A stretch of DNA of 64,000 nt from Leptolyngbya sp. FACHB-261 (GTDB lineage: Bacteria; Cyanobacteriota; Cyanobacteriia; FACHB-261), in contig NZ_JACJPL010000032.1 of the NCBI RefSeq assembly GCF_014696065.1, positions 1 through 64,000 of the forward strand, written 5' to 3'. Every line of letters starts with the position of its first letter. The stretch's first letter is position 1. Under the pieces are notes generated by a model. That model was not told where the DNA came from and ran no database searches. It saw nothing but the letters and a program-made list of their open reading frames with translations. This document shows positions 51,834 through 55,559 of this stretch, piece after piece. The translations under genes and the position numbers were made by a program.

Positions 51834-52613
51834 ATGCGGAAACTCTTAGCAGCCCTAGTGTTCTATACAGTGCTGCCCCTCACCCATCCAACTCTGTGGT
51901 GTGGGCGAACACCTGACTTGAACTTTGAAGGAATCGTGCATTTAGCGCCTCTGGTGGGCCTGCTACTAGGAACCCTACTGGGAGCCCTGAACGAGGGGTT
52001 CAGGCTGCTCGAAGTGCCAGATCTATTGCGTGGGACGCTCGTCGTTGTGATTTGGTTATGGCTGACAGGTGGGCTGCATTTAGATGGAGCGATGGATACA
52101 GCAGACGGTCTAGCTGTAATGGAACCAGAGCGACGCTTGCAGGTGATGGCTGATAGTGTGACTGGTGCCTATGGCGTGATGGTCGCCGGTGCAATTCTGC
52201 TACTCAAGGTTTCAGCGCTGACGAGTTTGAGCCAGATTGGTTGGTTTGCTCTTGTCAGTGCTGCAGCTTGGGGCCGATGGGGACAACTGGTTGCGGCAGC
52301 ATCTTATCCTTACCTCAGAACAACTGGGAAAGGCAAAATTCATCACAGGAGTCCGAAAACAACCCGGACAGCAGTCATTTCAGCAGTCGGTCTGGGTGGG
52401 TTAAGCATCCTACTGAGTTGGGCTGACCCAATATGGGGGCTAGTGACAATTTTGGCGGGTAGCAGTTTGGCCCTGTTGAGCGGCTTTTACTTCTATCGCG
52501 CCCTGGGTGGACATACAGGCGATACCTATGGTGCCGTGGTGGAATGGACAGAAGCCCTGCTGCTATGCGTTTTAGTTCTGACTAATCCACTGTTTGGGAC
52601 GACAGTTCAATAA
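51834..52613 (+). CDS. cobS: Adenosylcobinamide-GDP ribazoletransferase (cobalamin synthase)
   Basis: Final-assembly enzyme of cobalamin, joining the nucleotide loop in the membrane. The 259-residue protein has about six helices and the family motifs LPLTHPTLWCGRTP near the start, GALNEGFRLL, the conserved acidic LDGAMDTADGLAVM (about 80-93) and GHTGDTYGAVVEWTEALLL at the end. cbiB of the same pathway is at 8.2-9.2 kb. No cobalamin riboswitch could be recognised upstream. Confidence 0.95.
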   Translation: MRKLLAALVFYTVLPLTHPTLWCGRTPDLNFEGIVHLAPLVGLLLGTLLGALNEGFRLLEVPDLLRGTLVVVIWLWLTGGLHLDGAMDTADGLAVMEPERRLQVMADSVTGAYGVMVAGAILLLKVSALTSLSQIGWFALVSAAAWGRWGQLVAAASYPYLRTTGKGKIHHRSPKTTRTAVISAVGLGGLSILLSWADPIWGLVTILAGSSLALLSGFYFYRALGGHTGDTYGAVVEWTEALLLCVLVLTNPLFGTTVQ

Positions 52614-52663: not shown

Positions 52664-52690
52664 TTGTACCTACTTGCTTGTACCTACTTG
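52664..52690. repeat. 13-base tandem repeat upstream of exported-protein gene
   Basis: TTGTACCTACTTG occurs at 52664-52676 and 52678-52690, separated by a single C. The second copy ends at the ribosome site (GGAGG) of the next gene. It may be a recent duplication or a regulatory site in the leader. Confidence 0.85.
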
Positions 52691-52698
52691 GAGGCGAT

Positions 52699-53466
52699 AT
52701 GAGGAGTTTTGTTTTGTGTTCTACCCGTCGACTGCTATATGTCACGGCCTGTGCCATGTGTATCCCCCTAATAGCCCTTGCGATTTCAGCCCAAAAGGTT
52801 GGAGCAGAGCCCACGCCAATTCAAAATTCTCAAGTCCCTGACCTGGATGCGACTTACCAGCCTATTCAAGTTCCGCAAGCACAGGCCAATTTCTACACTC
52901 GCACCTACACGCCCACAGACTTCGGAGCTAATCCAGATCAGCGAGTACAGCGGATGAGTCTAGCTATAACCCCAGACCTGCGAGCTGGTGTATTCAACGA
53001 CCTCGGCTTTCGGTTAGCTTCAGTTTTTCGGGTCAATGGGGTAGAAACGCCTCTCTACCGGACCCAGGGTCGCTGTCAACCGTACATCCGTTATGGCACT
53101 ACAAACCAGGTTCAATATCAGTGCGTCGGCAGCTTTGATCCAGTGAGGCGGCCAGATATTACCCATTTCACCCTAACTACAGGGGCTCAAAATGGCCAAC
53201 CGGGTCTTTTCCTGAAAGCAGAACGCGTACTCTTATTTACGCCTGCTCCCTCCATTGCTGATCCTTTGAGCCCAACCTACGGCTTTGGACGCATGAGTGA
53301 TCCGGATTGGACACCAACCAGCTACGTCTACTTTCTGCCATTTGCAACTACAGGGCCTCTCTCGGCTTTAGATGAGCGTGCTGCCGCTGCGCCTGTCACC
53401 ACATCATTTCAGCCCAGTGCATTTCAGCCGTCTGCATCGTCTCGTCCGGTTCGCTCCCTCTGGTAG
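52699..53466 (+). CDS. Exported hypothetical protein
   Basis: 255-residue protein starting MRSFVLCSTRR behind GGAGG. A hydrophobic segment CAMCIPLIALAISA and the following cleavage-like site indicate a signal peptide, so it should be exported. The mature part looks beta-rich (TDFGANPDQRVQRMSLAITPDL and later strands) and ends with a short proline/serine-rich repeat QPSAFQPSA. An earlier in-frame start at 52624 adds an unconvincing 25 residues. The function is unknown. The glutaminase frame begins at or before its stop codon. Confidence 0.75.
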   Translation: MRSFVLCSTRRLLYVTACAMCIPLIALAISAQKVGAEPTPIQNSQVPDLDATYQPIQVPQAQANFYTRTYTPTDFGANPDQRVQRMSLAITPDLRAGVFNDLGFRLASVFRVNGVETPLYRTQGRCQPYIRYGTTNQVQYQCVGSFDPVRRPDITHFTLTTGAQNGQPGLFLKAERVLLFTPAPSIADPLSPTYGFGRMSDPDWTPTSYVYFLPFATTGPLSALDERAAAAPVTTSFQPSAFQPSASSRPVRSLW

Positions 53467-54386
53467 GGCCAAACGGCCTTGCAGCTCTCACCCAGACCCA
53501 GTTAGATCACTGGGTCGATCAAGCGCGAGCTTACATCCAACCGCCACATCAGCTACCAAACCACATTCCTTTGCTAGCTCAAGCTAATCCGGCTTGGCTA
53601 GCAATTCAGGTTCAGACGTTGCAGGGTGAGAGCTTCAAAGCAGGCAAGGTCGACCCAGCCTTCGCCTTGATGAGTGTAGTCAAGCCATTGGTGCTGTTGT
53701 TCCTGCTGGAATATTTGGGAGCGGACACCGTTTTTCAGCATGTAGGCATGGACCCATCGGACCGAGCCTTCAATTGTTTAACTCAATTGGAGCTTGACCT
53801 AGGTTGGCCTCGCAATCCCCTAATCAACAGTGGCGCCATTGTCTTGGCCTCGCTGCTGCCTGGGCAAGATGCTCAATCTCGCTGTGCGGCTCTGTGTCAC
53901 TGGCTGTGTCAACAGTCAGGCCAGCAACTGTTCTTGAATGAGACGTTACTAGCCTCTGTTCGTCTAGCAGGGGGACATGCCAACAGAGCCTTAGCCAGGA
54001 CTTTGGTACAGCATGGAAAGCTAGGCGAACCAGAGCTGGCACTAAACACCTACAACCATCTCTGCTGTCTATCGGGAACTGTAGCTAACCTGGCAGGCAT
54101 TGGCCTGCTACTGGCTAAACCTGGTCACTCACCCCGTGTAGAGCACCGCCGTATTGTTAATGCCCTAATGTCAACCTGTGGGCTGTATGAAGCCTCAGGA
54201 CGGTTTGCGGCCCGCGTGGGTTTACCAACGAAGTCCGGCGTTAGCGGTGCTCTTTTATCAGTAGTGCCAAGTCAAGGGGCTATTGCCTGCTACAGTCCCG
54301 CGTTAGATCTGAATGGCAATTCCTTAGCTGGATGCTATCTACTGGAGCAAATGGCTCAAGCCTTGAACCTGAGCCTTTTCAGTTAA
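53460..54386 (+). CDS. glsA: Glutaminase (start codon unresolved)
   Basis: Hydrolyses glutamine to glutamate and ammonia; glutaminase family, serine-dependent. The catalytic serine-lysine appears as S-V-V-K in LMSVVKPLVL. Other family blocks are GMDPSDRAFNCLTQLELD, PRNPLINSGAIV, LNTYNHLCCLSGTVANLA and VGLPTKSGVSGALLSVVP. The coding pattern continues upstream of the first TTG (53571) through PNGLAALTQTQLDHWVDQA, which is typical of the family N-terminus. No ATG, GTG or TTG is in frame there; the only near-cognate codon is CTG 53460, which overlaps the stop of the exported-protein gene. I give 53460 as the likely real start. Confidence 0.8.
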   Translation: MVGPNGLAALTQTQLDHWVDQARAYIQPPHQLPNHIPLLAQANPAWLAIQVQTLQGESFKAGKVDPAFALMSVVKPLVLLFLLEYLGADTVFQHVGMDPSDRAFNCLTQLELDLGWPRNPLINSGAIVLASLLPGQDAQSRCAALCHWLCQQSGQQLFLNETLLASVRLAGGHANRALARTLVQHGKLGEPELALNTYNHLCCLSGTVANLAGIGLLLAKPGHSPRVEHRRIVNALMSTCGLYEASGRFAARVGLPTKSGVSGALLSVVPSQGAIACYSPALDLNGNSLAGCYLLEQMAQALNLSLFS

Positions 54387-54404: not shown

Positions 54405-55469
54405 TCACTTACGCTCTGGATGAGCCGCTTCTGGCGGTGGCCCCATTTCGTTAATTGCTGCAATCATCTGATAGAGACGGCCCTGGTCCCGTTGATTGAA
54501 GTACAACAATAGCCGAGGCAAGTCCAAAGTCTCATCTTTGCCTTCCTCAGGCAAAGCCCGACTCTTGATGATTTGCCCCTTGACCAGAATGTCACTGAAT
54601 AGAGCATTGAGTTGCTCAACTTCAAGATCGGAGAGTTCAAAGTTGAGCCTGAGCACTAGTTTCGGACCGACATAACGGCAGGAGTGATAAACCCGGTAGA
54701 AGCTGGCAATCGCCTCACAAGCGACATCAACCCGGTCTGTAAGCGTATACAAGCTGCGATCATCCGGACTAATTAATCCGCGTTTCAGCAGGTGCTTCTG
54801 AATGTACGCATCCCATTCCAACCAGTAGTCTCCCCCTGGCTTGTCAACCAGAACCAGTGGTAGGGGCTGCGATTTGCCAGTTTGGCAAAGGGTTAGGCAT
54901 TCAAACGCTTCATCATGGGTGCCAAAACCACCGGGAAACAGAGCGAGGGCGTCACTCTCTTTGAGAAAGAACAATTTGCGAGTAAAGAAGTATTTAAAGT
55001 CGATCAGCTTAGGGTCGCCTTGAATGTACGGGTTAGCTCCCTGCTCAAACGGCAAGCGGATATTGAGGCCGAAAGAGCGCTCAGTCCCCGCTCCTTCATT
55101 AGCACCCTGCATGATGCCCCCGCCAGCTCCCGTTATCACCATGAAGCCTTGCGCTGTTACACAACGGGCAAAGTCTGCTGCAAGTTGGTACTCTGGGCTA
55201 TCCGGTTGAATTCTAGCGGAGCCAAAAATACTAATCTTGCGGGTATGGCGATAGGGATAAAAGACTTGGAAGCCTCCAGCCATATCTTGCAGAGCAGCAC
55301 TAAGGATCTTCCAATCGAGACGGTCAATTTCACCGTTGGCTAGGTGCAGGGTCGAGGCTAGCACCTGTTGAATCAGCGCACCATTCTTAAGATCAGGCAA
55401 CTGGTCCAACAAATGATTAAGCTGGTTGCGCAGAGCGGATGAGGGGTCATTGGAAGGCAATGAAGTCAT
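54405..55469 (-). CDS. LOG/TIGR00730-family Rossmann-fold protein
   Basis: 354-residue relative of the LOG (Lonely Guy) family, some of which release free cytokinin bases or cleave nucleotide monophosphates. The diagnostic nucleotide site appears as GAGGGIMQGANEGA (near 110-125) and PGGFGTHDEAFE (near 180-191). It is longer than the 180-250 residues of plain LOG proteins, with about 75 extra N-terminal residues and a C-terminal extension. ATG 55469 (MTSLPSND) is preferred to TTG 55484. The substrate is unknown. Confidence 0.88.
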   Translation of the reverse strand: MTSLPSNDPSSALRNQLNHLLDQLPDLKNGALIQQVLASTLHLANGEIDRLDWKILSAALQDMAGGFQVFYPYRHTRKISIFGSARIQPDSPEYQLAADFARCVTAQGFMVITGAGGGIMQGANEGAGTERSFGLNIRLPFEQGANPYIQGDPKLIDFKYFFTRKLFFLKESDALALFPGGFGTHDEAFECLTLCQTGKSQPLPLVLVDKPGGDYWLEWDAYIQKHLLKRGLISPDDRSLYTLTDRVDVACEAIASFYRVYHSCRYVGPKLVLRLNFELSDLEVEQLNALFSDILVKGQIIKSRALPEEGKDETLDLPRLLLYFNQRDQGRLYQMIAAINEMGPPPEAAHPERK

Positions 55470-55559
55470 GGGGGAAGGCACCAATGGGCCACTATTCTAC
55501 TGGCTTGCAGCCCTCCGCTACCTGCTCAGGCTGTTACTCCTCAAGTTAAACGAACAAAC

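Follow-up and report, generated by a model that had tools for sequence, protein, structure and literature searches.

A gene of the glutaminase family in Leptolyngbya sp. FACHB-261 has an intact body and lacks an ATG, GTG, or TTG where its relatives begin. Our best reading, to which we give a probability of about 0.5, is that it would be initiated from a rare CTG at position 53460, weakly and probably in coupling with the gene immediately upstream. Positions refer to the window, that is, the whole stretch of 64,000 nucleotides that was analyzed, which lies within contig C32 (108,296 bases) of a 6.95-Mb genome in 36 contigs. The features of the locus are listed in Table 1.

Table 1. Features around the putative CTG start (window coordinates; SD, Shine-Dalgarno)
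Feature	Position	Strand	Basis or remark
cobS	51834-52613	+	TIGR00317, 152.6 bits versus a cut-off of 110
GGAGG, SD-like site of the upstream gene	52690-52694	+	Within TACTTGGAGGCGATATG, whose end is ATG 52699
Upstream gene, start ATG 52699, stop TAG 53464-53466	52699-53466	+	In-frame codon score +28.7
CTG, proposed start codon of the glutaminase-like gene	53460-53462	+	Sole near-cognate codon within the family start zone
CTGGTAG, 7-nt overlap of the proposed start with the upstream stop	53460-53466	+	Sequence
Glutaminase-like gene, 308 codons from CTG plus stop	53460-54386	+	PF04960 and TIGR03814 profile scores
Possible hairpin GUAGGGCC-AAAC-GGCCUUGC, directly 3' of the CTG	53463-53482	+	Folding; region z-score 0.22
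Conserved N-terminal part, 5' of the first standard start codon	53463-53570	+	N-terminal/rest identity ratio 0.893
TTG, first in-frame standard start, query residue 37, inside the fold, without SD-like site	53571-53573	+	
Convergent ORF 3' of the glutaminase frame	54405-55484	-	ORF list

The family start zone

Beyond a TGA at 53373-53375, the reading frame of the glutaminase stays open from 53376 through a stop codon whose last base is 54386, and, as an earlier note on this DNA had claimed, it contains no ATG, GTG, or TTG before TTG 53571. Two further claims of that note hold on inspection: the codons for the N-terminus typical of the family (LAALTQTQLDHWVDQARAY...HIPLLAQ) lie 5' of this TTG, where both relatives and solved structures align, and CTG 53460, within CTGGTAG, overlaps the TAG (53464-53466) of the ORF at 52699-53466. 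The CTG had also been described as the one near-cognate codon, and this needs amendment. Six others are in frame (ATC 53403, ATT 53406, ATT 53421, ATC 53436, ATC 53535, and ATT 53565), although none of these six falls within the zone in which relatives start, as the CTG does.

Relatives were searched for first in 59 and then in 388 genomes of the same class, of which 36 and 258, respectively, gave a match (own genome included), as well as in a set of named contigs, which contributed 16 loci, cyanobacterial by their records. The 130 loci that we compared are a subset of all matches, comprising 70 from the searches (own locus included) and 60 further loci from the match list of the 388 genomes; one pair among them shows no difference in its first 300 nt. 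With residue 1 of the query set at position 53463, each of the 129 other loci offers an in-frame ATG, GTG, or TTG no later than query residue 12, and the gene studied here offers none. For 115 of these 129 loci, a standard start falls within residues -3 to +5. Nine codons would hold such a triplet by chance in 33% of cases, as estimated from shifted frames of the own genome, so this nine-codon zone can be taken as the start of the family. The comparison with glsA of relatives, proposed in the earlier note, finds that most homologues do have a normal start at this position; it leaves the observation standing and shows the oddity to be peculiar to this lineage.

Among 114 distinct loci, the lone start in the zone is ATG in 43, TTG in 33, and GTG in 18, and the remaining 20 have more than one. 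An SD-like motif precedes the zone start in 10 of 43 loci with ATG, five of 33 with TTG, seven of 18 with GTG, and 10 of 20 with multiple starts. Given how frequent TTG is and how seldom an SD-like site accompanies it, weak initiation is usual in the family. TTG is a very common start in cyanobacterial glutaminase genes, mostly without an SD-like motif.

CTG 53460 occupies query position 0, inside the zone. The chance of finding a CTG in such a zone is 0.168 (17%), so its position alone is modest evidence.

No ATG, GTG, or TTG occurs in any of the frames between 53420 and 53478, and a single indel therefore cannot place a standard start in the zone. This bears on two explanations that invoke error. 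The first, a frameshift error, was among the options of the earlier note and is disfavored: in addition to the lack of standard triplets, the similarity to LxALTQxQLD is found in frame 0, starting at about 53478, and frame 0 upstream scores as non-coding. The second is that the assembly carries a wrong base, at 53460 or right beside it, which masks a normal start. Changing just the first base of the CTG would create a standard start precisely where the family begins, but single indels offer no such route, and both neighbors, cobS and the upstream ORF, have clean reading frames. An assembly of such contiguity seldom contains base errors, and we regard this explanation as improbable.

Identity and integrity of the gene

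The product scores 289.6 bits against PF04960 (cut-off 27) and 260.3 bits against TIGR03814, slightly above the cut-off of 255.4; its highest identity to cyanobacterial glutaminase relatives is 65%. Alignments to four solved bacterial glutaminases (2pby, 3agf, 1mki, and 1u60) begin at query residues 10-13 and end at residue 306, and those to many relatives begin at residues 1-9. Because the structures align from residues 10-13, most of the stretch 5' of TTG 53571 (residue 37) is part of the fold. Translation from this TTG, giving a shortened protein of 271 residues, would have the merit of using the first in-frame standard start. However, it would remove 36 residues, most of them aligned to the four structures, from a codon with no SD-like site, whereas an earlier start is available in each of the 129 other loci. 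We consider it very improbable.

The catalytic Ser-x-x-Lys of glutaminases is present: S71 and K74, within LMSVVKP, match LQSISK of 2pby in the alignment. The conserved Glu of the SE...N stretch, which presumably has a role in substrate binding, is missing, the codons at 53955-53963 reading SVR versus SER in canonical members. Most cyanobacterial members of this subfamily have SVR, and the second glutaminase of the genome has SER. By alignment, the loss of the Glu is subfamily-wide. We accordingly call the product glutaminase-like, as judged from its sequence, and make no claim of activity; with the conserved Glu missing, the true substrate of the SVR subfamily may deserve a test.

Coding potential was scored by codon pairs, with 541 long ORFs of the own genome as the training set. 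From 53376 to 53459, frame 0 scores -11.5, a non-coding value that is no longer seen after the CTG, and the frame of ATG 53372 scores -19.6; together these values place the real beginning near 53460-53490. The score is almost flat over the N-terminal part (34.3 at the CTG, 33.0 at TTG 53571, with a peak of 35.8 at 53484). A scan for start-less genes with the same kind of signal, itself weak, flagged 11 of 796 open frames in 1.14 Mb of the own genome. The glutaminase gene is not among the 11, several of which have a normal ATG just inside.

Constraint was counted in 26 close sequences, at positions invariant in the others. Across residues 37-300, 61 of 63 such positions are kept and two are changed (the other sequences have zero to four changes at 61-65 positions). 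The body of the gene is intact, constrained, and not decaying. Within residues 6-36, two of seven invariant positions are changed, versus zero or one of five to six in the 25 close relatives, a hint that the N-terminal part may be under relaxed constraint. One of these changes replaces the Tyr of the YIP motif with His (53562-53564); Arg or His also occurs there in Nostoc and several loci. The ratio of identity in residues 6-36 to that in residues 37-300 is within the range of 18 close relatives (0.67-0.95).

These counts are relevant to what we consider the main competing explanation, that the start was recently lost by a real mutation and that the gene is a silent or near-silent young pseudogene, its CTG being a TTG after one transition. 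The genome carries a second, canonical glutaminase (C31:700278-701129, - strand) with an ATG 5' of the homology, so loss of the gene would be tolerable. The altered N-terminal positions and the lack of both an SD-like site and a standard start point the same way. On the other hand, the frame runs to its normal end without a stop or frameshift, the invariant positions of the body are largely retained, and the N-terminal/rest identity ratio is ordinary. Overall, we judge a recent loss to be rather unlikely. In a tree of 63 rows (seven of the 70 loci were left out), the gene sits alone on a branch of 0.63, outside its best-matching family (f16), with weak support (80/83). This placement identifies no ancestral start codon, and a long lone branch, having no sister to show its age, is also compatible with start loss. 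CTG and TTG are one transition apart, and, given the relatives with TTG, a one-base change from TTG to CTG is plausible, if not proven.

The upstream gene and the proposed coupling

The upstream gene has GGAGG four bases ahead of its ATG, and its N-terminus, judged by eye, resembles a signal peptide. It runs in the same direction as the glutaminase gene and overlaps it. It is also lineage-specific: a Pfam profile search gave no match, none was found among 193 other genomes of the same class, and the gene was not found near 69 other glutaminase loci, whose flanks were covered for up to 1.5-5 kb, or less where a contig ended. Between 52500 and 54500, an Rfam search returned no match and a promoter scan found zero sites, versus 1.6 expected by chance, a zero that carries no weight.

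Initiation at the CTG would proceed as follows. After reaching the TAG of the upstream gene, which is itself well initiated, ribosomes would stay on the message and use initiator tRNA to begin again, with low efficiency, at the overlapping CTG. The CTG would in this way be the present start codon of an intact cyanobacterial glutaminase-family gene, and the outcome would be a low level of full-length glutaminase-like protein. We infer each of these elements, the use of the CTG, the translational coupling, and the low yield, and restart of terminating ribosomes is the most economical mechanism. Non-standard initiation with coupling fares best of the three options in the earlier note, the others being a frameshift error and a lost start; the interpretation given there is partly supported.

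No SD-like motif lies ahead of CTG 53460 or of TTG 53571; for comparison, 164 of 541 long ORFs of the genome have one at their first possible start. A relaxed initiator tRNA, such as the M1 change described in PMC11497404, was considered as an aid to CUG initiation and rejected, as the anticodon-stem stretch of the initiator tRNA has zero mismatches to the ordinary pattern and no special adaptation to CUG is thus seen. A bolder reading, which we consider less likely than not, is that a CUG without an SD site, too weak for free initiation, would be usable only by termination-reinitiation from this lineage-specific upstream gene.

The overlap of the frames also raises the idea that a programmed -1 frameshift might occur where the upstream ORF ends and fuse the upstream protein to the glutaminase, and a hairpin is possible just past the overlap. 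However, no X XXY YYZ slippery site was found by eye in CGCTCCCTCTGGTAG, the region folds no better than shuffled sequence, and, with the upstream gene missing from the 193 other genomes, the fusion would be without a known relative. Within the 1.14 Mb of the own genome that was scanned, the core of the hairpin is present a single time. We consider a programmed frameshift hardly credible.

Precedents and meaning

A CTG start is unusual for a bacterial gene, yet it has precedent, and the gene described here is a candidate. As quoted in PMC11497404, CUG makes up about 0.024% of annotated bacterial starts and its output is 0.86% of that of AUG; in an E. coli reporter study, CTG was among the codons at 31-74% of ATG (PMC6925171). 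The closest parallel is the RepFIB rep gene of F-like plasmids, for which a CTG start was proven by N-terminal analysis and a CTG-to-CTC mutation, and whose annotated start is often wrongly placed at a GTG further downstream (PMC11983097). As may be the case here, it has a bacterial CTG start overlooked in favor of a downstream standard codon, and low expression. In contrast, its CTG has a good GGAGG-type site, whereas the putative CTG studied here has no SD site and overlaps an upstream stop. The Caulobacter dnaA CUG, which forms complexes in vitro and is not used in vivo (PMC8443254), calls for caution in reading the CTG as a start.

Termination-reinitiation is known for co-directional genes whose stop and start overlap, as they do here (ATGA, TGATG; PMC6728339, PMC12548453). 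The usual overlap is 1 or 4 nt and involves ATG, whereas here it would be 7 nt and involve CTG, if that is the start. In cyanobacterial overlapping pairs, an SD site precedes the second gene in only about 40% of cases (PMC6728339), so that its absence at the CTG is not decisive. Another putative CTG start, that of pop in E. coli O157:H7, was likewise argued from sequence, together with ribosome data, but pop is an antisense overlapping gene with an SD site and lies outside established enzyme families (PMC7103648). Cyanobacterial glutaminase genes themselves share the protein family and the place of the start zone with this gene and differ in that all 129 others have TTG, GTG, or ATG starts. 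Searches of the available literature on CTG start codons in cyanobacteria and bacterial genomes, and on cyanobacterial glsA, showed no report of such a start in this gene; judged by title and abstract, the papers retrieved for cyanobacteria and CTG start codons do not deal with a cyanobacterial CTG start.

Gene finders usually accept only ATG, GTG, and TTG, so a gene of this kind would be annotated at least 36 residues short or as a pseudogene. If the CTG is used without an SD site, the locus would be a simple natural test of coupling that rescues a very weak start codon; if it is unused, this would be an ordinary start loss in a gene with a paralogue.
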